DNA of 64,000 nucleotides from Streptomyces sp. DH-12 (GTDB lineage Bacteria > Actinomycetota > Actinomycetes > Streptomycetales > Streptomycetaceae): assembly GCF_002899455.1 (NCBI RefSeq), contig NZ_PPFB01000001.1, forward strand, positions 1,860,001 through 1,924,000. Reading direction: 5' to 3'. Made by a program: the position numbers and the translations under genes. This document shows, one piece after another, positions 9,199-64,000 of this stretch. The notes below the pieces were generated by a model, which saw nothing but the letters and a program-made list of their open reading frames with translations, was not told the origin of the DNA and did no database searches. The stretch's first letter is position 1, and the number at the start of each line of letters is the position of its first letter.

Positions 9199-10328
9199 CC
9201 GGCGGCCTTCCCGTCCCCGCCGCGCGCCGGGGCGGGTTCCGGGCCGGCCGCCGTGTGGGCGGCGCGGATCGCCTCGCCGATGGTCTGCTGGGAGACCACG
9301 CCGGTCACCCGGCCGTCCGCGTCCACGGCGACCGCCCAGCCGGTGGGCGAGAGGACCGCGCAGTCGAGCGCGGCCCGCAGCGAGTCCGTACCGGGCACGA
9401 ACGGCCGTCCGTACGGCAGGAGTCGCCCCGGGTCGCCGGTGCTCCCCCGCTCCCGCCAGCCGAGCGGGCGGCCGCCGGCGTCGGTCAGCAGCAGGTACGG
9501 CGCCTCGGTGGCGGTGAGGCGCTCGGCGGGCGCGTCGGCCGGGACCACCGCGTCGGTGGTCAGCTCCAGCGCGTCCGACGTGAAGAAGGACAGCCGGCGG
9601 ATGCCCCGGTCGGCGCCGAGGAAGTCCTCGACGAAGGCGTCCGCGGGGTGCGACAGCAGCTCGGCGGGCGGGGCGTACTGGGCGAGCCGGCCGCCCTCGC
9701 GCAGTACGGCGACCATGGTGCCCAGCTTGATCGCCTCGTCGATGTCGTGGGTGACGAAGACGATGGTCTTGCCCAGCTCGTCCTGGATGCGCAGCAGTTC
9801 GTCCTGGAGTCCCTTGCGCACCACCGGGTCGACGGCCGAGAACGGCTCGTCCATCAGCAGCACCGGGGGATCCGCGGCGAGCGCCCGCGCCACGCCGACG
9901 CGCTGCTGCTGGCCGCCGGAGAGCTGGTACGGGTACCGCTGGGCGAGGGAGGCGTCCAGGCCCACCCGTTCCATGAGCTCCGCCGCCCTCTCCCGGGCGC
10001 GCCGCTTGCCCCAGCCGAGCAGGCGGGGGACGGTCGCGATGTTGTCGGCGACGGTGCGGTGCTGGAAGAGGCCCGCGTTCTGGATGACGTAGCCCATGGA
10101 GCGGCGCAGGGTGGTCACCGGCTGCCGCCGGACGTCCTCGCCGTCGAGGAGGATCGTGCCCTCGGTGGGCTCGACCATCCGGTTGATCATGCGCAGGGTG
10201 GTCGTCTTGCCGCAGCCCGAGGGGCCGACGAGGACGGTGATCGAACGGTCGGGGATCTCCAGCGACAACCGGTCGACCGCCACCGTGCCGTCCGGGTACC
10301 GCTTCGTGACTGAGTCGATCCGTATCAA
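9195..10328 (-). CDS. opuCA: Osmoprotectant ABC transporter ATPase with CBS region
   Basis: 377 residues. Walker A GPSGCGKTT at 35-43, signature LSGGQQQR near 141, Walker B VLLMDEPFSAVD near 160, switch His in VTHDIDEA. The last 140 residues look like a degenerate CBS pair ending in GWAVAVDADGRVTGVVS, a region that senses ionic strength in OpuA/OpuC-type importers. I place the start at the TTG 10328 (MIRIDSVTKRYPDG) with GAAGGG 11 bases upstream; no ATG or GTG lies closer in frame. It is the first gene of a four-gene operon for compatible solute uptake. Confidence 0.88.
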   Translation of the reverse strand: MIRIDSVTKRYPDGTVAVDRLSLEIPDRSITVLVGPSGCGKTTTLRMINRMVEPTEGTILLDGEDVRRQPVTTLRRSMGYVIQNAGLFQHRTVADNIATVPRLLGWGKRRARERAAELMERVGLDASLAQRYPYQLSGGQQQRVGVARALAADPPVLLMDEPFSAVDPVVRKGLQDELLRIQDELGKTIVFVTHDIDEAIKLGTMVAVLREGGRLAQYAPPAELLSHPADAFVEDFLGADRGIRRLSFFTSDALELTTDAVVPADAPAERLTATEAPYLLLTDAGGRPLGWRERGSTGDPGRLLPYGRPFVPGTDSLRAALDCAVLSPTGWAVAVDADGRVTGVVSQQTIGEAIRAAHTAAGPEPAPARGGDGKAAG

Positions 10329-53855: not shown

Positions 53856-53892
53856 GGAAGGCCCCGACACCCGCGAGGTGTCGGGGCCTTCC
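53856..53892. terminator. Strong terminator after fadB
   Basis: Perfect 15-bp stem 53856-53870 with 53878-53892, 7-base loop. Confidence 0.85.
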
Positions 53893-55289: not shown

Positions 55290-55380
55290 CGCACCGCGGT
55301 CCGCGCCGCGGACGCGGGGATCCCGCCGTACGGCCTCCCCCGCGGGAGGATTGCCCGGGCTTGCGTGGGACCCTGACCGT

Positions 55381-55752
55381 ATGGAAGAGGCCGGTTCCCT
55401 GCTCGTGATCGTCGACGCCGCGAACGTCGTCGGGTCGGTGCCCGACGGGTGGTGGCGGGACCGCCGGGGGGCGGCGGAGCGGCTGCGGGACCGGCTGGCG
55501 GCCGACGGGCTGCCCGGCCTCCCGGGCCCGGTGGAGATCGTCCTCGTGGTGGAGGGCGCCGCCCGGGGCGTGGAGTCCGTGCCCGGCGTGCGGGTCGACC
55601 AGGCTCCCGGCAGCGGGGACGACCGGATGGTGGACCTCGTGGCGGCGGCGGGCGGGCGTCCGGTCCTCGTCGTCACCGCCGACCGTGAGCTGCGCCGCCG
55701 GGTGACGGCGCTGGGCGCCGACGTCACCGGGCCGCGCTCGGCGCCCCGCTGA
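55381..55752 (+). CDS. Small NYN/PIN-like nuclease domain protein
   Basis: 123 residues. NYN-type acidic motifs: VIVDAANVVGS near 10, DDRMVDLVAAAGG near 80 and VVTADRELRRRV near 98, which would hold a metal for RNA cleavage. Substrate unknown. The ATG at 55381 has GACCCT 6 bases upstream and no ribosome site. It ends at the long hairpin that separates it from the PKS. Confidence 0.75.
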   Translation: MEEAGSLLVIVDAANVVGSVPDGWWRDRRGAAERLRDRLAADGLPGLPGPVEIVLVVEGAARGVESVPGVRVDQAPGSGDDRMVDLVAAAGGRPVLVVTADRELRRRVTALGADVTGPRSAPR

Positions 55753-55755
55753 GAC

Positions 55756-55800
55756 GCGCGGCCGTCCTCGGCGCCTGCCCGGCGCCGAGGACGGCCGCGC
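55756..55800. terminator. Strong bidirectional terminator at the PKS boundary
   Basis: Perfect 20-bp stem 55756-55775 with 55781-55800, 5-base loop, between the NYN gene and the convergent PKS gene. Confidence 0.88.
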
Positions 55801-55806
55801 TCCCGG

Positions 55807-58800
55807 CTACTCCCCCGGCCGCTCCTCGCCGGCCCCGAGGCCGAGGCGCTGGTGCACCAGGCGGGCGAAGTGCCCGAGGGTGCGGCCGGTGGCCAGATCG
55901 GCCGGAGCGAGGCGGACGTCGAACAGGTCCCTCGCCTGGACCAGGAACTGCATGCCGAGCAGTGAGTCCAGGCCGTAGTCGGTGACGTTGTGCGCCGCGT
56001 CCAGGCCCGACGGGTCGGTCTGGAGGACCGTCGCGAGGAGCTGGGTGAGCGTCTCGGTGATCTTCTCCACGGCCTCCTCGGCGGACAGCCCGGCCAGGGT
56101 GCGCAGCAGCTCGTCGCGGGCGTCCGGGGAGGCCACGCCGGTGGCCGGGGCCAGCCGGGCGAACCGGGGGGTGGCCAGCGCGGGCAGCAGGTGGCGTGCG
56201 GCTCCCCAGCGGTAGCGGCCCACCCCCGCGACGTCGGTCCCGGCGGCCAGCAGGCGTCCGGCCGCGTCCAGGGCCTCGCCGGGGTCGAGGAGTTCGAGGC
56301 CGCGTCCGGTCATCGCGGACTCCATCCCGGTGCGCGCGACGTACCCGGTGCCGCCGATCGGCCCCCAGGCCAGGGCCGTGCCCGGCCGGCCGGCGGCGCG
56401 GCGGGCCCGGGCGAGCGCCTCCAGGTACGCGTTGGCCGCCGCGTAGGCGGCCTGCCCCGGATTGCCGATGGCGGCGGACACGGACGAGTGGGCGAGGAAC
56501 AGGTCCAGGTCGCGGCCCGCGGTGAGGCGGTCGAGGAGGGCCGCGCCACCCGCCTTGGGCGCCATCACGGCGGCGAACCGCTCGTCGGTGAGGTCGGCGA
56601 GCGCCGCGTCGTCCATGTGCATGGCCGCGTGCACGACACCGCGCAGGGGGTGCCCGCCGGCGTCCACGGCGTCGACGATCCGGCGCAGCGCGGCCTCGTC
56701 GGTGACGTCGGCGGCGTGGACGGTGGTCCGTACGCCCCGTTCGGTGAGGTCCCGGAGCAGGGCGGGCGCCTCGGGCGCTTCGGGGCCCCGGCGGGAGACG
56801 AGGGCCAGGTGCCGGGCGCCCAGGTCGGCGAGCCGGCGGGCGGTGGCGGCGCCGAAGCCGCTCGTGCCGCCGGTGACCAGGTAGGTGCCGTCGCCGTCGA
56901 GGCGGAGGGCGCCGGGCGCGGGCTCCACCGGGACGGGTTCGTCGAGCGGGTCGAAGGTGACCACGACCTTCCCGGTGTGCCGGGAGTGCTGGAGGAGGTG
57001 GAACGCCTCGTCGACCCGGGCGGCGGGGTGGGCCGTGTGGGGCAGCGGGCGGTAGGCGCCGGCGTCGACCAGGGCGCCGAAGTCCTCCAGGAGCCGGGAG
57101 CGCAGGGCCGGGGAGTCGATGACGGCGTCGAGGTTGAAGCCGATGAAGGTGAGGCTGCGGTCGAACGGGCGCAGTGTGAGCGGGTTGTTGCGGAAGATGT
57201 CCCGCTTGCCGAGCTCGATGAAGCGGCCGTTGGGGCGGAGCAGGTCGAGGCCGCGGGCGATGGCCTCGCCGCTGAGGGAGTTCACCACGACGTCCACGCC
57301 CCGCCCGCCGGTGAGTTCGCGCACCCGCGGGACGAAGTCCAGGCTGCGGGAGTCGAGGACGTGGTCGGCGCCGAGCGTGCGCAGCAGGTCCCGCTTGGTC
57401 TCCGTGCCCGCGGTGGCGATGACACGGGCGCCCTGCCGGCGGGCGCACTGGAGGACGGCGAGGCCGACCGCCCCGGCGCCGCCGTGCACGAGGACGGTCT
57501 CGCCCTCCGTGAGGCGGGCCTGGTGGACCAGGGTGTGGTGGACGGTCAGGAAGGCGACGGGGAAGGTGGCCGCCTCCGCGAAGCTCATCGCGTCGGGGAT
57601 GCGGACGACGGCGGCCGCGGGGGTCGTCGTGTGGGAGGCGAGGGCGGCCGGCATGAGGCCGGTGACCCGGTCGCCGGGCCGCAGTCCGCGCACGCCGGGT
57701 CCGACGGCGTGCACGATGCCCGCACCGTCGGTGCCGAGCCCCCTCGCGAGGGGGCTGCCCTCCACCGCCTCGGGCGGCAGCAGGCCGTTGGCGCGCATGG
57801 GGTCGCGGTAGTTCAGGGCCACGGCCCGCAGCTCGACGGTCACCTCACCCGGTCCCGGTACCGGCAGCTCCGTCTCGCGCCAGACCAGCCGCCGGTGCAG
57901 GCCGGGGTCGCGGACCTCCAGGACGTACGGCGTGCCGGCCGGGACGGCCGGGGCCTCGCCCGCCGGGTGCTGCGCCTGCCGGGGGACGAACCGTCCTCCC
58001 CCGGTCAGCACGACCTCGTCCTCGCGGGCGCCCGGGTCGTCGTCGCCGGCGGCGAGGAGTTCCCCGGCGAGGCGCCGGGCGTCGGCGGCGGGGTCGCCGG
58101 TGCGGTGGCAGGACAGGCGCCGCAGGCTCAGGTCGGGCCGCTCGTTGGCGAGGGTGCGGCAGGCCGCCCAGACGGCCGCGTCGCCCGGGTGGGCCGGCTG
58201 CTCGGGGGCCGGGAACAGACCGGTGGGCCGCGTGACCAGCCACACCTGGGGCTGCGTGCGGCCCTCGGCGGACGCGCAGGCGGCGGCCAGGGAGCGCAGC
58301 AGGGCGGCGCGGCGGACGGTCCGCGGGACGGTGTCGTCCGGGCCGGGCTCCGCGAGCAGCAGGACGACGCGCGGGCCGGTGCCGGCGGGGAGCGTTCCGC
58401 GCCAGGCGGCGGGGTCGTCGGGCGCGGTGACGACGGCGGCCCCGCCGAGCAGGGCGGCCAGTTCCCGCGCGGTCGCCGTCTCAGTGCCGTCCTCGACGGC
58501 GATCACCCAGGGAGCGGCGTCCGCGGGCGTACGGGGCGGCTCGGTGGCGGCCTGCGCCGCGTCCCTCACCGTCCGGGACGCCTCGACGGCGGCCTCGGAC
58601 GCGCCGTCACCGCCCGGTGCGGCGGCCTCCCGCTCCCGAGGCGCGGCGGCGAGGAGCAGGCTGCGGTCCTCCGGGCCGTGCTGGACGACGCCGGTGAAGC
58701 CGCACTCCTCCAGCAGCGGCGCCCACCGGTCGCGGGGCAGGACGCGGCAGGCGGGGCGCAGCGCGCGGTCGTCGCGCTCCCAGAAGTCGTTCAGCATGCC

Positions 58801-61800
58801 GGACCGCAGCGCCTGCAGCACGGCATCGTGGGGTTCGGCTGCCAGCAGGTGGCCGCCGGGGGCGAGCACGGTGCGCAGCCGGCGCAGGGTCGCGGCGACG
58901 TCGGTGGTGGCGTGCAGGGCGTCGCCCGCGAGGACGAGGTGGAAGCCGCCGCGCGGCAGACCCTGGGCGAGAAGGTCGCTGTCCGGGTCCAGGGTGCGGT
59001 ACCGGGTGAAGTCGTAGCGGGCGAAACGGTGTTCGGCGCGGGCGAAGCCGCTGCCGGCGGGAGCCGTGCAGACGTACCGCGTGCGGTCGGCGGGGAGCAC
59101 GGGCAGGGCCGCGGCGGTCAGGGCGCCGGTGGTGGCTCCGATCTCCAGGACGCGCAACGGCCGGTCCGCGGGCCAGCGTTCGACGAGGGCGCCGAGCACC
59201 GCCTGTACGGCCCGGTGGGTGTAGCGGTGGGCGGGGCCGGTCTCGTGGAGCTGGTCGAGGGTGCTGTCGCCGGGCGGCAGGAGGTCGGCCGCGTCGGTGA
59301 CGCCCCGCACCACCTCGGGCAGGCGGCACAGCTGCCGGTTGAGCAGGAGGGTCTCGGCGCCGTGGCCGGGGTGGTCCTCCACCAGCGCCCGCAGCACGGT
59401 CCCGGGCGTCTCGCCGGCGCCGGTCAGCCGCCAGTGGTCGCCGTCCTGCCGGGCGAGGCCGTGCGCGGCCAGCAGCGGCAGCATGAGGCGGGCCGCCCGC
59501 CGGTGCCGGGGCTGCATGCCGCCCGCCACCAGGTCGGCGACGGTGAAGGGGGCGCCGGGGTCGGTGAGCAGGCCGCGCAGGGCGGCGGCCCAGCAGTGGG
59601 CGCCGGCGCGTCCGGCGGCGGCGACGAAGCGGTGGTGGCCGGTGTCGTCCAGGGCGGCCCGTGCGGCGGTGAGGCGGGGGGCGGCGGCGCGGGCCAGTTC
59701 GGCGGGGGCGGGCAGCGGGCCGGGGTCCGCCGGGGCGCCCGGGTGCGGGGCGGCGCGGAGCACGGTGCGCTGGACGGTGAGCGGGGTGTCGCCGGTCAGG
59801 TGGCCGCGGCGGGTGCGGCAGCCGTCGATCTCGGCGGTGACCGTGCCGTCGGGGTCGGCGTAGGTGATGTCCCAGCACATCTCGTTGGCGCTGCGGGAGC
59901 GCCGGCGCAGGTGCACGATCCCGGTGGGCGAGGGGGTGCGCCAGACGCGGACGGCGCCGAACACGGTGGGCAGGAACCCGGCGGACTCCGCGGTCGGTCC
60001 GGCGAGGGCGACGGTGGCCTGGAGCGGGGCGTCGAGCAGGACCGGGTGGGCGGTGTGGGCGGCGGCGTCGTGCCGCAGCCGGTAGGAGACGAGGACCTCG
60101 CCGTCGCCGGCGTCGATGCGCTCGATGAGCTGGAAGGCGGGGCCGCAGTTCAGGCCGACGGCGTGGCAGGCGCGGTAGAACTCGGGGCCGTCCACGGTGC
60201 GTTCGCAACGGGCGCGCACCGCGTCGGCGTCGAGCGGGCCGGGTGCGGCGCCGAGCAGGGTGCGGACCTGGGCGCGGACGACGGGCCGGCACTCCCCGTG
60301 GTGTTCCTCGCGGACGCTGACGGTGAGCGTGCCGTCGTCGGGGGTGACGGCGGTCTGGAGGGCGACCGGGGTCGGGTCGGGCCACGGCACGGACAGCGGC
60401 CGGCCGATCTCCAGGTGCCGCACCTCGACGGGCCGGTCCAGGGCCAGCCGGCCCGCGCTGAGCGCCATGTCGACGTAGGCGGCGGCCGGCATGAGGACGT
60501 CGTCGCCGATCCTGTGGTCGCCGAGCCAGGGCACCAGCTGCGGTTCGACGGTGCCGTGCCACACCGGGTGCGGGGCGGGCATCCGTTCGCCGACGAGGGG
60601 GTGGTCGAGCAGGCCGTTGCCGCTGGTGCCGCTGATCAGGCCCTGCGGGGTGCCGTGCCAGTACCGCTGCCGCTGCCAGGGGTAGGCGGGCAGGTCGGCG
60701 ACGCGGCCCTGGCGGGGGAAGTGCGCGCGCAGGTCCGCGCCGGGCACGGCGGCGAGGACGGCACAGACCGCGGCGGCCGTCTCGCGCCGGCCGTCGCCGT
60801 CGCGGTGCAGGGTGGGCACGCAGGTGGCGCCGGTGCGGCGCAGGTAGGGGCGGAGCACCGGGTGCGGGCCGATCTCCACGAGGGTGCCGGCGTGGCCGTC
60901 GGTGAGGCGGGCGGCGGCCTCGGCGAACCTGACCGGTTCGCGCACGTTGCGCCACCAGTAGCCGGCGTCCAGTTCGGGCCCGTCCAGGAGGGCGCCGGTG
61001 ACGGTGGAGACGAACGGGATGCGGGCGGGGGCGGGGGCGAGTCCGTCCAGCGCGGTGAGCAGCGGCTCGCGGATGGGGTCCATGGCCCGGCTGTGGAAGG
61101 CGTAGTCGAGGCCGAGGTCGCGGAAGAACACGCCGCGGGCGGTGAGGTCCGCGCCCCAGGCGGCGAGCGCGTCGGCGTCCCCGGCGACGGTCACGTCCCG
61201 GTCGCTGTTGACGCCCGCGATCTCCAAGGAGCCGTCGTGGCGGGCCAGTTCCTCGCGGGCCCGCTCCTCGGGCAGGCCGACGGCGGCCATGCGGCCCCGG
61301 CCGGCGGTGGTGCCCTGGGTGCGGCTGCGTTCGGCGATCACCAGGGCGGCCTGGTCCAGGGTGAGGATGCCGGCGGCGTGGGCGGCGGCGACCTCGCCGA
61401 CGCTGTGCCCGGCCACGGCGCCGGGCCGCACCCCGTGCGAGGCGAGCAGCGCGGTGAGCCCCACCTGCAGGGCGAACAGGGCGGGCTGGGCGATCTCCGT
61501 GCGCTGCCAGGCACGGGGTGAGGGGTGGGCCAGTTCCTTGGCGACGGAGCGGCCCAGGTGCCGGGCGAGGGCCGCGTCGGCCTCCTCGACGGCCCGGCGG
61601 AAGACCGGTTCGGCGTCGAGCAGGTCGGCGCCCATGCCGGGCCACTGGGAGGCGTTGCCGGAGTAGACGAACGCGGTGCCTTCCCGCTCGCTCACGCGGA
61701 CGACGGCGCCGCGGGCGGGTTCCGCGGCCGCCAGGAGGTCGAGCTGCCGGGCGGCGTCCGCCGGGTCGGCGGCCAGGACGGCGGCGCGGTGCGGGTGGGC

Positions 61801-63261
61801 GGTGCGCCGTACGGTGCTGGTGCGGGCCAGGTCGTGGAACTCCCCCGGGTCCGCGGCCCGCAGCCGCTCGGCCATGCGGCCGGCCAGTTCCTTGAGCGCC
61901 GCGCCGGAGCGCGCAGACACCATCAGCGGCAGGGGGCGTCCGGGCCCGTCGGGCTCCGGTTCCGGCGCGGCGGGCGGCGGGACGACGACGGCGTGGGCGT
62001 TGGCCCCGCCGAAGCCGAAGGCGCTCACGCCGACGGCGGCCCGCTCGTCGTCCGGTACGGGGACGGGCTCGACGGCGGGGGCGAGGTTCAGGCCGTCGAA
62101 GTCGATGCGGGGGTTGAGCGGGAGGGCGTGCAGGGACTTCGGGACGAGCCGGTGGCGCAGCACCAGGATCGCCTTGAGCAGGCCCGCCATGCCGGAGGCG
62201 GGTTCCAGGTGGCCGAGGTTGGACTTCACCGAGCCGATCGGCAGCGGGCCGCGGCCGCGCCGCCGGCCGAGGGCACGGCCGATGGCCTCGGCCTCCGCGG
62301 GGTCGCCGGCCTGGGTGCCGGTGCCGTGCGCCTCGACGTACAGCAGGTCGTCGGGGCCGACGCCGGCCCGCGCGTACACCGCGTGCAGCAGCGCCTCCTG
62401 CGTCTCGGCGCTGGGCACGATCATGCCGGTGCTGCGGCCGTCGGTGTTGTTGCCGGTGGCGGCGAGCACGGCGTGGATCCGGTCGCCGTCCGCGACCGCG
62501 TCGGCGAGGCGTTTGAGGACGAGGACGGCGCCGCCCTCGGCGCGGACGAAGCCGTCGGCGTCGGCGGAGAAGGCCGCGCACCGCCCGCGCCGGGACAGCA
62601 TGCCGGCGTACGAGAATCCGGCGAACGAGTAGGGACTGACCAGGACGTTGACGCCGGCGGCGAGGGCGACGCGTCCTGTGCCCTCGTGCAGGGTGCGGCA
62701 GGCGCGGTCCAGGGCGACCAGGGCGGAGGAGCAGGCGGTGTCGACGGCCATGCTGGGGCCGCGCAGGTCGAAGGCGTACGACAGGCGGTTGGCGGTGATG
62801 GACAGGGTGGCGCCGGGCATGGTGTGCGGGCTGGTGTGGTCCTGCGTCATCGACAGGCCGACGCCGTACGCCGGGTCGGAGACGCCGACGTACACGCTGG
62901 TGTCCGACCCGGCCAGCGACTCGGCGGGGACGCCGGCGTCGTCGAGGGCCTCGGCGGCCATCTCCAGCAGGAGCCGCTGCTGCGGGTCCACGTGCCGGGC
63001 CTCGGCGGGCGACATGCCGAAGTAGGCGGCGTCGAAGGAGGCCACGTCCGGCAGGAAGCCGCCGGCGGCGGTGTAGCTGCGGCCCGGACGGACCGCTCCC
63101 GGGTCGACCGTCCGGTCCCTGGGGAAGCGGTCGGCGGGCATCTCGGTGACCATGTCCCGCCCCTCGCGCAACACGGACCACAGCCCGTCCAGATCGGTGA
63201 TGCCTCCCGGAAGCCGGCAGCCGATCCCCACCACCGCCACGGCTCGTTCGCACTGCTGCAT
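55807..63261 (-). CDS. Iterative-type highly reducing type I PKS (KS-AT-DH-MT-ER-KR-ACP)
   Basis: 2484 residues, one full module. KS 9-425 with DTACSSALVALD (Cys about 175), HGTGT and NLGHLEPASG. AT about 530-830 with GHSVGEVAAAH near 620 and malonyl-type QPALFALQV; the specificity site reads YAFH near 720. DH about 890-1150 with His in GDHRIGDDVLMP near 917 and LLDAPLQ near 1077. C-methyltransferase-like domain about 1340-1540 with VLEIGATTG near 1374. ER about 1780-2085 with ALNYRD and HGGAGAVGLA. KR about 2110-2310 with GGTSGFG and GQAAYAAANAYLEA. ACP about 2395-2470 with GLDSL near 2432. No thioesterase. The order equals fungal highly reducing PKSs, suggesting iterative chain building. 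ATG 63261 preferred; in-frame TTG at 63267 possible. Confidence 0.92.
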   Translation of the reverse strand: MQQCERAVAVVGIGCRLPGGITDLDGLWSVLREGRDMVTEMPADRFPRDRTVDPGAVRPGRSYTAAGGFLPDVASFDAAYFGMSPAEARHVDPQQRLLLEMAAEALDDAGVPAESLAGSDTSVYVGVSDPAYGVGLSMTQDHTSPHTMPGATLSITANRLSYAFDLRGPSMAVDTACSSALVALDRACRTLHEGTGRVALAAGVNVLVSPYSFAGFSYAGMLSRRGRCAAFSADADGFVRAEGGAVLVLKRLADAVADGDRIHAVLAATGNNTDGRSTGMIVPSAETQEALLHAVYARAGVGPDDLLYVEAHGTGTQAGDPAEAEAIGRALGRRRGRGPLPIGSVKSNLGHLEPASGMAGLLKAILVLRHRLVPKSLHALPLNPRIDFDGLNLAPAVEPVPVPDDERAAVGVSAFGFGGANAHAVVVPPPAAPEPEPDGPGRPLPLMVSARSGAALKELAGRMAERLRAADPGEFHDLARTSTVRRTAHPHRAAVLAADPADAARQLDLLAAAEPARGAVVRVSEREGTAFVYSGNASQWPGMGADLLDAEPVFRRAVEEADAALARHLGRSVAKELAHPSPRAWQRTEIAQPALFALQVGLTALLASHGVRPGAVAGHSVGEVAAAHAAGILTLDQAALVIAERSRTQGTTAGRGRMAAVGLPEERAREELARHDGSLEIAGVNSDRDVTVAGDADALAAWGADLTARGVFFRDLGLDYAFHSRAMDPIREPLLTALDGLAPAPARIPFVSTVTGALLDGPELDAGYWWRNVREPVRFAEAAARLTDGHAGTLVEIGPHPVLRPYLRRTGATCVPTLHRDGDGRRETAAAVCAVLAAVPGADLRAHFPRQGRVADLPAYPWQRQRYWHGTPQGLISGTSGNGLLDHPLVGERMPAPHPVWHGTVEPQLVPWLGDHRIGDDVLMPAAAYVDMALSAGRLALDRPVEVRHLEIGRPLSVPWPDPTPVALQTAVTPDDGTLTVSVREEHHGECRPVVRAQVRTLLGAAPGPLDADAVRARCERTVDGPEFYRACHAVGLNCGPAFQLIERIDAGDGEVLVSYRLRHDAAAHTAHPVLLDAPLQATVALAGPTAESAGFLPTVFGAVRVWRTPSPTGIVHLRRRSRSANEMCWDITYADPDGTVTAEIDGCRTRRGHLTGDTPLTVQRTVLRAAPHPGAPADPGPLPAPAELARAAAPRLTAARAALDDTGHHRFVAAAGRAGAHCWAAALRGLLTDPGAPFTVADLVAGGMQPRHRRAARLMLPLLAAHGLARQDGDHWRLTGAGETPGTVLRALVEDHPGHGAETLLLNRQLCRLPEVVRGVTDAADLLPPGDSTLDQLHETGPAHRYTHRAVQAVLGALVERWPADRPLRVLEIGATTGALTAAALPVLPADRTRYVCTAPAGSGFARAEHRFARYDFTRYRTLDPDSDLLAQGLPRGGFHLVLAGDALHATTDVAATLRRLRTVLAPGGHLLAAEPHDAVLQALRSGMLNDFWERDDRALRPACRVLPRDRWAPLLEECGFTGVVQHGPEDRSLLLAAAPREREAAAPGGDGASEAAVEASRTVRDAAQAATEPPRTPADAAPWVIAVEDGTETATARELAALLGGAAVVTAPDDPAAWRGTLPAGTGPRVVLLLAEPGPDDTVPRTVRRAALLRSLAAACASAEGRTQPQVWLVTRPTGLFPAPEQPAHPGDAAVWAACRTLANERPDLSLRRLSCHRTGDPAADARRLAGELLAAGDDDPGAREDEVVLTGGGRFVPRQAQHPAGEAPAVPAGTPYVLEVRDPGLHRRLVWRETELPVPGPGEVTVELRAVALNYRDPMRANGLLPPEAVEGSPLARGLGTDGAGIVHAVGPGVRGLRPGDRVTGLMPAALASHTTTPAAAVVRIPDAMSFAEAATFPVAFLTVHHTLVHQARLTEGETVLVHGGAGAVGLAVLQCARRQGARVIATAGTETKRDLLRTLGADHVLDSRSLDFVPRVRELTGGRGVDVVVNSLSGEAIARGLDLLRPNGRFIELGKRDIFRNNPLTLRPFDRSLTFIGFNLDAVIDSPALRSRLLEDFGALVDAGAYRPLPHTAHPAARVDEAFHLLQHSRHTGKVVVTFDPLDEPVPVEPAPGALRLDGDGTYLVTGGTSGFGAATARRLADLGARHLALVSRRGPEAPEAPALLRDLTERGVRTTVHAADVTDEAALRRIVDAVDAGGHPLRGVVHAAMHMDDAALADLTDERFAAVMAPKAGGAALLDRLTAGRDLDLFLAHSSVSAAIGNPGQAAYAAANAYLEALARARRAAGRPGTALAWGPIGGTGYVARTGMESAMTGRGLELLDPGEALDAAGRLLAAGTDVAGVGRYRWGAARHLLPALATPRFARLAPATGVASPDARDELLRTLAGLSAEEAVEKITETLTQLLATVLQTDPSGLDAAHNVTDYGLDSLLGMQFLVQARDLFDVRLAPADLATGRTLGHFARLVHQRLGLGAGEERPGE

Positions 63262-63410
63262 CGCCAAGTTCCCGCCTTCTCACGCCGGTTGCCAGCTTCG
63301 TGAGCGGAGTAGAGAACATTCCGGTTCGAAAACGCCAGCGGGGCCCACTCGTTGGGGTGAAGATGACCGCCCTGGGGGCTCGCGGGCCTGGCGGGGGGTG
63401 GCGTCGCCGC

Positions 63411-63416
63411 TACGGT
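63411..63416 (+). promoter_or_regulatory. -10 hexamer for leaderless KSIII gene
   Basis: TACGGT, 6 bases before the GTG at 63423. Confidence 0.45.
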
Positions 63417-63422
63417 GACGCG

Positions 63423-64000
63423 GTGCCCGAAGCCCTGCGTGCCCGCATCGCGGCCGTCACCGCCCATCTGCCGTCCCGTTACCGGACCATGGAGGAGATC
63501 CGTGCCCGGATCGCCGCGACCGGCGGCTACGCGCCGCCCCCCGGCCTGCTGGAGGACCTCACCGGGGTGCGCGGCGTCCATGTGCACGAGGAGGGCGAGA
63601 ACGCCTCCGACCTCGCCGTGACCGCCGCCCGCCAGGCGCTCGACGAGGCGGGACTGAAGATCGGCGACGTCGACCTGCTGCTGTTCGCGTCCACCGCGCA
63701 GGACCTGATCGAGCCCGCCACCTCCCACCTCGTCGCGGCCAAACTGGGCGCCACCTGCCCGGTGTTCGACGTGAAGAACGCCTGCAACAGCGTCCTCAAC
63801 GCGATGGAGGTGGCGACGTCGTTCATCGAGGCGGGCCGCTACCGCACGGTGCTGATCGCCTGCGGCGAGCCCGCCACCCTGGCGACCCGCTGGCACGCCC
63901 CCGACCGGCAGACCCTGCTGCGGGCCCTGCCGGGCTACACCGCCTCCGACGCGGGCGCGGCGATGATCCTCACCGCGGGACCGGCGGGCGACGGCGACTC
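63423..64000 (+). CDS. FabH-like ketoacyl-ACP synthase III, cut by window end
   Basis: The first 192 residues are visible. The frame opens PEALRARIAAVTAHLPSRY, has DLLLFASTAQDLIEPATSH near 80 and the active-site Cys in VKNACNSVLNAMEV near 120, as in KSIII enzymes. The catalytic His and Asn lie beyond the window. It could load a starter unit for the PKS or transfer its product. It is divergent from the PKS with 161 bases between starts, so both probably share a control region. Confidence 0.87.
   Translation, partial: MPEALRARIAAVTAHLPSRYRTMEEIRARIAATGGYAPPPGLLEDLTGVRGVHVHEEGENASDLAVTAARQALDEAGLKIGDVDLLLFASTAQDLIEPATSHLVAAKLGATCPVFDVKNACNSVLNAMEVATSFIEAGRYRTVLIACGEPATLATRWHAPDRQTLLRALPGYTASDAGAAMILTAGPAGDGD

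Follow-up and report, generated by a model that had tools for sequence, protein, structure and literature searches.

The window analysed here is a 64,000-nucleotide stretch of the Streptomyces sp. DH-12 genome (G000; C1:1860001-1924000). Its right-hand end carries the gene for a single-module reducing type I polyketide synthase (PKS), which diverges from an operon for an OleA-like ketosynthase III (KSIII), OleB-, OleC- and OleD-like enzymes, a free acyl carrier protein (ACP) and a FabF-like ketosynthase (KS). The part of the operon beyond the window was read in the flank L021 (C1:1915001-1934999), where adding 55000 to a position gives the window position. Gene content, motifs, conservation, co-occurrence and a tree were observed, and the reading of them that we consider fairly likely is that the seven genes form a dedicated pathway to a polyketide-derived hydrocarbon, in which OleA would release the PKS chain and OleD, OleC and OleB would make an olefin.

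The locus

The PKS gene (55807-63261, minus strand) encodes 2484 residues from an ATG at 63261; an alternative TTG start would give the reading frame 55807-63267 and 2486 residues. Pfam searches and motifs gave the order KS-AT-DH-(pseudo-MT)-ER-KR-ACP. The KS domain with its linker (61777-63246; PF00109, PF02801, PF16197) contains VDTACSS, EAHGTGT and KSNLGH. The acyltransferase (AT) domain (60775-61671; PF00698) contains GHSVGE and YAFH and is predicted from these motifs to be of the malonyl type. The dehydratase (DH) domain (59806-60603; PF21089, PF14765) has its His and Asp, and it is followed by a C-methyltransferase-like (MT) domain (58690-59208; PF08242, PF13489) whose S-adenosylmethionine (SAM) motif is degenerate by comparison with relatives. 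The enoylreductase (ER) domain (56959-57855; PF08240, PF00107, PF13602) has GGAGAVG, the ketoreductase (KR) domain (56356-56889; PF08659) has an MDD motif, which we take to be B-type, and the ACP domain (55855-56052; PF00550) has LDSL. Pfam found no thioesterase in the protein. As the protein is a single module without partner modules, that module is presumably used iteratively.

A preliminary description of this DNA had read the same domain order, without a thioesterase, in one protein, and the architecture is indeed that of the fungal-type highly reducing PKSs. Its remark that this is uncommon in bacteria is wrong for Streptomyces: among 392 Streptomyces genomes, dozens have PKS frames of about 2,500 amino acids that include a related MT domain, and the DH-12 genome itself has a second such PKS.

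The PKS and the KSIII are separated by a divergent intergenic region of 161 bp (63262-63422). The KSIII gene starts with a GTG at 63423 on the plus strand, the equivalent codon being the start in close relatives; its 5' part fills 63423-64000 and the whole gene is L021:8423-9445, ending at C1:1924445. Both the distance and the opposite orientation had been given correctly before, and the label "divergent KSIII" was right. The suggestion that the KSIII stands at a cluster edge was not, since reading beyond 64000 adds five more operon genes, all on the plus strand: an OleB-like alpha/beta hydrolase (L021:9439-10374, with a start at 9439, 9442 or 9448), an OleC-like AMP-dependent ligase (L021:10371-11969), an OleD-like NAD-dependent epimerase-type reductase (L021:11966-12997), a free ACP (L021:12961-13221) and, last, a FabF-like KS (L021:13218-14432). 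The ligase and hydrolase frames overlap by 4 bases, as do those of the reductase and ligase and of the FabF-like KS and ACP, and the ACP and reductase frames overlap by 37 bases. Because neighbouring reading frames in this six-gene, same-strand operon meet or overlap, its translation is probably coupled. The FabF-like gene is followed on the opposite strand by permease and dxs genes (named by eye).

Identity of the KSIII and its operon partners

In alignments the KSIII residues E97, C121, H267 and N297 fall on the catalytic Glu and the Cys-His-Asn triad of OleA, and all four are invariant in 18/18 close and 48/48 wider relatives. The protein thus has both the triad and the Glu (E117 in Xanthomonas campestris) that mark an OleA; in the FabH structure 4ryb a Phe aligns with the Glu. 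This Glu is described as characteristic of OleA and PpyS; in OleA it projects into the neighbouring monomer, its loss in PpyS abolished photopyrone production, and MxnB and CorB lack it (PMC4578411). By overall sequence the KSIII is about equally near to OleA and FabH, with about 26% identity to the known OleA proteins of the X. campestris and Micrococcales systems.

For fold comparison an AlphaFold model built from 48 sequences (pLDDT 93) was used in place of an earlier one from 18 close sequences (pLDDT 59). A Foldseek search with this model returned X. campestris OleA as all of the best 15 PDB chains. VIA-align Z scores were 39.9 for OleA, 38.5 for MxnB and 38.3 and below for KSIII/FabH, margins of about 1.5.

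The best NCBIfam match of the reductase is an OleD model (343.8 bits, with 268 for a second OleD model, against a cut-off of 580). The ligase is matched best by a general fatty acid CoA ligase model (403.5 bits, below its cut-off of 478) and next by two olefin beta-lactone synthetase (OleC) models (344.3 and 283 bits; cut-offs 900 and 850). The hydrolase matches haloalkane dehalogenases, presumably the family of OleB, and like OleB it is an alpha/beta hydrolase with an Asp nucleophile adjoining OleC and OleD. Its catalytic Asn, Asp, Trp, Asp and His, and the YxxxK motif of the OleD-like reductase, are kept in 23/23 aligned rows. The names OleB-, OleC- and OleD-like are used because no model cut-off was passed.

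Conservation of the PKS-OleA pair

Two overlapping samples were used: the 392 Streptomyces genomes, DH-12 included, and a one-genome-per-species scan that gave 473 confirmed OleA relatives, of which the best 80 were analysed. A pair was counted when a KS of at least 60% identity lay on the minus strand no more than 400 bp from OleA. Nineteen of the 392 genomes, that of DH-12 among them, have an OleA of at least 62% identity, the next best being 50%. A divergent PKS stands beside it in 18/18 widely examined loci of those 19 genomes; in the remaining genome (G338) OleA lies on a contig of 3,221 bases, and a KS beside OleA was seen in L099, also of 3,221 bases. Among the best 80 OleA relatives the PKS is paired in 34/35 at 60% identity or above and in 0/45 below 60% (Fisher p 8e-22). 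The aligned KS start and the OleA start are 149-291 bp apart in 34 related loci, and every one of the 34 paired loci is from Streptomyces. Natural carriers include S. griseoaurantiacus and S. coeruleorubidus.

OleB, OleC and OleD homologues were found in 18/19 genomes carrying the pair, away from it in three (G258, G219 and G213) and, in G241, across the PKS from OleA. At the level of the 34 paired loci, 21 include B, C and D, two are cut off after B or C, and three carry B and C beyond the PKS, on the side away from OleA. An OleC at E<=1e-60 is present in 29/392 genomes: 18/19 with the pair versus 11/373 without (p 1.3e-22). Because the pair is kept where B, C and D are distant or not found, PKS-OleA is the conserved core and BCD its near-constant companion. 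Pairwise distances of OleA are correlated with those of the KS (Spearman 0.84, 528 pairs) and of OleC (0.90, 325 pairs).

The ACP and FabF-like KS are present in 11 paired loci, plus one interrupted by a contig end, and among paired loci only in the subclade of the window (12 tree rows, support 100/100). They look like an added module, because other strains have OleBCD with both genes and no such PKS. Two loci of this kind are L082:6765-13020 and L088:15471-20000, where OleBCD, ACP, FabF-like KS and a KSIII of 38-42% identity occur with no reducing PKS in the fetched DNA. Two irregular PKS loci were also seen: Streptomyces sp. ISL-11 (L125) has two PKS copies, one on each side of OleA, and in S. 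triculaminicus (L123:2479-9824) the PKS is in two frames with a 7-base overlap between MT and ER, which may reflect a true split of the gene or a mistake in the assembly.

The PKS clade and its methyltransferase domain

The closest full-length relatives found for the PKS are Streptomyces PKSs paired with OleA (56-82% identity), and the titles and abstract openings listed in the literature searches mention no such pair, so the outcome that the preliminary description had named as overturning it, a mycocerosic-type or known-product cluster as nearest relative, did not occur. The paired PKSs were aligned in 34 rows, that of the window included (L117 and L123 are incomplete). The KS, AT, DH, ER, KR and ACP motifs are intact wherever rows reach, and GHSVGE with YAFH or HAFH is present in 34/34 AT domains; we take these motifs, as opposed to YASH, to signify malonyl-CoA.

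In the MT domain the window PKS has LEIGATTGA in place of LExGAGTGG as SAM motif I. With LExGAGTG as the definition of an intact motif, it is intact in 5/34 paired PKSs (L113, L116, L120, L122 and L140) and lost in 29/34; three PKSs beyond those five keep GAGT without the next G. The motif is intact in 20/20 unpaired relatives versus 5/34 paired ones (p 1.7e-10, a value that overstates independence because the rows are related). The 20 unpaired PKSs were picked by MT similarity, so the contrasts in motif and in tree hold against those 20. The methyltransferase-like domain noted earlier is therefore present, but judged on motif I it departs from a working C-methyltransferase and is probably inactive.

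A tree of KS-AT sequences separated the 34 paired PKSs from the other rows by a single branch (support 99/98, recovered in 99% of 200 bootstrap trees), with that of CB03234 the first to split among them. Of the unpaired rows the second PKS of the DH-12 genome, itself on a long branch, comes nearest to them. This single-module reducing synthase (L174:6425-13951; C1:1452425-1459951) has an intact MT motif and adjoins a short-chain dehydrogenase/reductase (SDR)-like gene (L174:5308-6369, by eye), which is possibly its release partner. Other unpaired reducing PKSs (L183, L187, L188 and L193, also L184 and L191) have behind them genes for a conserved protein (about 1,000 amino acids), a free ACP and an AMP-ligase-like protein, apparently a different release or tailoring set; in L191 no ACP was called.

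Proposed pathway

In the proposed pathway the reducing PKS would use malonyl units to build an acyl chain, with the MT domain as a relic. Transfer from the PKS ACP would place this chain on the Cys of the OleA-like KSIII, whose Glu would deprotonate the alpha carbon for a non-decarboxylative attack on a second acyl thioester, giving a 2-alkyl-3-ketoacid. OleA would thus be at once the release enzyme and the chain-joining enzyme of a thioesterase-less PKS. The OleD-like reductase would convert the ketoacid to the 3-hydroxy acid, the OleC-like synthetase would close the beta-lactone and the OleB-like hydrolase would remove CO2 to leave an internal olefin. The free ACP and FabF-like KS of the window's subclade might, as a guess, supply or extend the second chain.

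These roles are the ones described for OleA, D, C and B, with beta-lactones as the products where OleB is missing (PMC7064751). There is also a precedent for a megasynthase acting with OleA: the Shewanella Pfa synthase and OleA in a fadD-minus E. coli gave a 31:8 ketone, and acyl-ACP was inferred there as the OleA substrate (PMC6463001). The preliminary description had offered priming or acyltransfer as the task of the KSIII; the role in chain release is retained, and in place of a priming enzyme or plain acyltransferase we propose an OleA-like head-to-head condensing enzyme.

A broader version of this reading appears possible but doubtful. The products would be unsymmetrical polyketide olefins, a new class in which the type I PKS provides one chain and the type II ACP/FabF-like pair the other, with OleA both joining them and releasing the PKS. 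The Streptomyces reducing PKS family would serve as a common framework with exchangeable release partners (OleA, an SDR-type reductase, an AMP-ligase/ACP cassette), and the MT domain would have decayed because the gain of OleA made C-methylation useless.

Several points weigh against the olefin pathway. Every chemical step, the chain length, the unsaturation, the second chain and the final product are inferred from genes, and predicting OleA function from sequence alone is called impractical (PMC7064751). The fold scores set OleA only narrowly ahead of MxnB and KSIII/FabH, and the ligase and reductase score far below the curated OleC and OleD cut-offs, the ligase matching a general CoA ligase best. 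The sole unpaired OleA at 60% or above (L121, 61%) lies near B, C and D homologues with no such PKS. Conversely, 8/34 paired loci are without OleB, C or D in the DNA examined, and for one of the 19 genomes, that of CB03234 (G006), they were not found anywhere; the pair can therefore exist without the olefin route. G213 has its B, C and D genes arranged around a different KSIII (L085, 38% identity), and it may be this enzyme, not the paired OleA, that they work with. Finally, clustering and correlated divergence are also expected from plain co-inheritance of neighbours, and adjacency is no proof of chain handover.

Alternative readings

The alternatives overlap with one another and with the olefin reading, and their probabilities do not sum to one. 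The one that survives best, and which still seems unlikely, is that the end product is a lipstatin-like beta-lactone, with the OleB-like hydrolase employed otherwise, for example in self-protection. An OleC-like synthetase is present, and OleACD without OleB gives beta-lactones in other actinobacteria (PMC7064751). Here, however, the OleB-like gene is inside the operon and an OleB homologue occurs in the same 18/19 genomes as C and D. The olefin is favoured over the beta-lactone because the OleB-like catalytic residues are kept in all 23 rows.

It is also rather improbable that OleA and OleBCD turn ordinary fatty acyl thioesters into a membrane olefin and that the PKS merely shares the locus, its product being unrelated. 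The known OleABCD systems do use cellular fatty acids (PMC7064751, PMC6463001), and L082 and L088 show that OleBCD, ACP and FabF-like KS sets occur without such a PKS in the fetched DNA. The strictness of the pairing (34/35 versus 0/45), which is kept even when BCD is elsewhere or not found, argues against mere proximity, as does the descent of the paired PKSs as one clade.

Equally improbable as a general account is that the KSIII joins chains in the manner of PpyS to give an alpha-pyrone, or gives a ketone without BCD. PpyS uses the same Glu (PMC4578411). This output is the likelier one in CB03234, whose genome has the PKS and OleA with no B, C or D found and whose PKS branches first among the paired ones, and it is compatible with the olefin reading in other strains. 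Where BCD is present, in 18/19 genomes, it is not needed.

The KSIII could also be a FabH-like priming enzyme that provides the starter unit of the PKS, with the Ole-like genes encoding tailoring enzymes of another sort; this is improbable as well. The KSIII fold is shared and FabH structures score nearly as well, but the head-to-head Glu, invariant in the 48 wider relatives, is absent from the aligned FabH, OleA structures rank first in Foldseek, and 18/19 genomes with the pair also have B, C and D homologues. A synthase of the mycocerosic or phthioceranic acid type, making methyl-branched fatty acids, was rejected as barely plausible: among solved structures MAS scores best (905 bits) and the NCBIfam Pks2 model scores 1054.2 bits, but the cut-off of that model is 2400 bits, the AT has YAFH rather than YASH, there is an extra MT domain and the partners are different.

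Comparison with known systems

The Shewanella system, Pfa with OleABCD (31:9 hydrocarbon), is alike in that a megasynthase feeds OleA, probably with acyl-ACP, and OleBCD finish the olefin. It differs in its multi-protein PfaA-E synthase, which also makes eicosapentaenoic acid (PMC6463001); in Streptomyces a single-protein PKS adjoins OleA, and one subclade has the ACP and FabF-like KS. The OleABCD systems of X. campestris and the Micrococcales have homologous A, B, C and D proteins with conserved active residues, but they have no PKS and use fatty acid substrates (PMC7064751).

Among the closest relatives of the KSIII outside the paired group are the OleA proteins of L134:9992-15378 (Streptomyces) and L168:10004-15345 (Actinomadura), with 48 and 49% identity. 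They stand in rows of OleA, glycosyltransferase, P450, OleC and OleD (genes named by eye), and neither locus has a PKS or OleB. Both resemble a region of Actinoplanes atraurantiacus for which a beta-lactone is predicted (PMC7064751).

PpyS and MxnB/CorB are likewise stand-alone enzymes of the KSIII fold that join two acyl or polyketide chains, but they make alpha-pyrones, and MxnB and CorB, unlike the KSIII of the window, are without the Glu (PMC4578411). MAS and Pks2 of mycobacteria, which are methylmalonyl-specific, are the best-scoring characterised PKS relatives and are also single-module reducing synthases, but they have no MT domain and have other partners. The jawsamycin and fuelimycin PKSs of Streptomyces are bacterial, iterative, type I and long-chain as well; they are KS-AT-DH-ACP proteins with separate KR and cyclopropanase, and fuelimycin has a separate thioesterase, jawsamycin none (PMC13389473).

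The literature searches gave, among the titles and abstract openings listed, no description of a Streptomyces PKS-OleA pair, from which absence from print does not follow; the gene names oleC and oleD are used for oleandomycin as well. The results suggest that a few dozen Streptomyces genomes encode a route to polyketide-derived olefins that is as yet uncharacterised, new as a combination of known parts and not as an enzyme fold. It would give a group of thioesterase-less single-module bacterial PKSs a concrete release mechanism and would carry the logic of the polyunsaturated fatty acid synthase/OleA system over to a different synthase in Streptomyces. These few dozen genomes may make polyketide hydrocarbons, which are readily overlooked, being non-polar and not present in the usual natural-product extracts.

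Limits of the gene cluster

The gene to the left (55351-55752, NYN-like by eye) and the permease and dxs genes to the right are shared by five relatives with all seven genes (L094, L101, L103, L115 and L128). The seven genes are kept with other flanks in L093, L097, L100, L104 and L105. As the flanks change between relatives, the PKS and FabF-like genes are taken as the two ends of the unit. A plasmid search matched 39 records, only one of which covers at least 80% of the query; in the record of Streptomyces sp. BHT-5-2 the stretch is without annotation.

The preliminary description had placed the left boundary of the cluster at a 20-bp hairpin (55756-55800). The hairpin is exact: arms of 20 nt (55756-55775 and 55781-55800) are 100% complementary around a 5-nt loop, and the folding energy of 55753-55806 is -51.8 kcal/mol. 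The PKS gene and the frame 55351-55752 converge on it from either side, and a second perfect hairpin (53856-53892; 16-nt arms, 5-nt loop) lies directly behind a fadB-like gene (named by eye). With its convergent-gene position and this similar hairpin, the element was rejected as a cluster edge; it is a terminator-like intergenic element and not a boundary signal. Elsewhere in the genome, more than 40 KS-domain matches occur in a run at C1:52987-279464, where very large modular PKS genes lie near one contig end.

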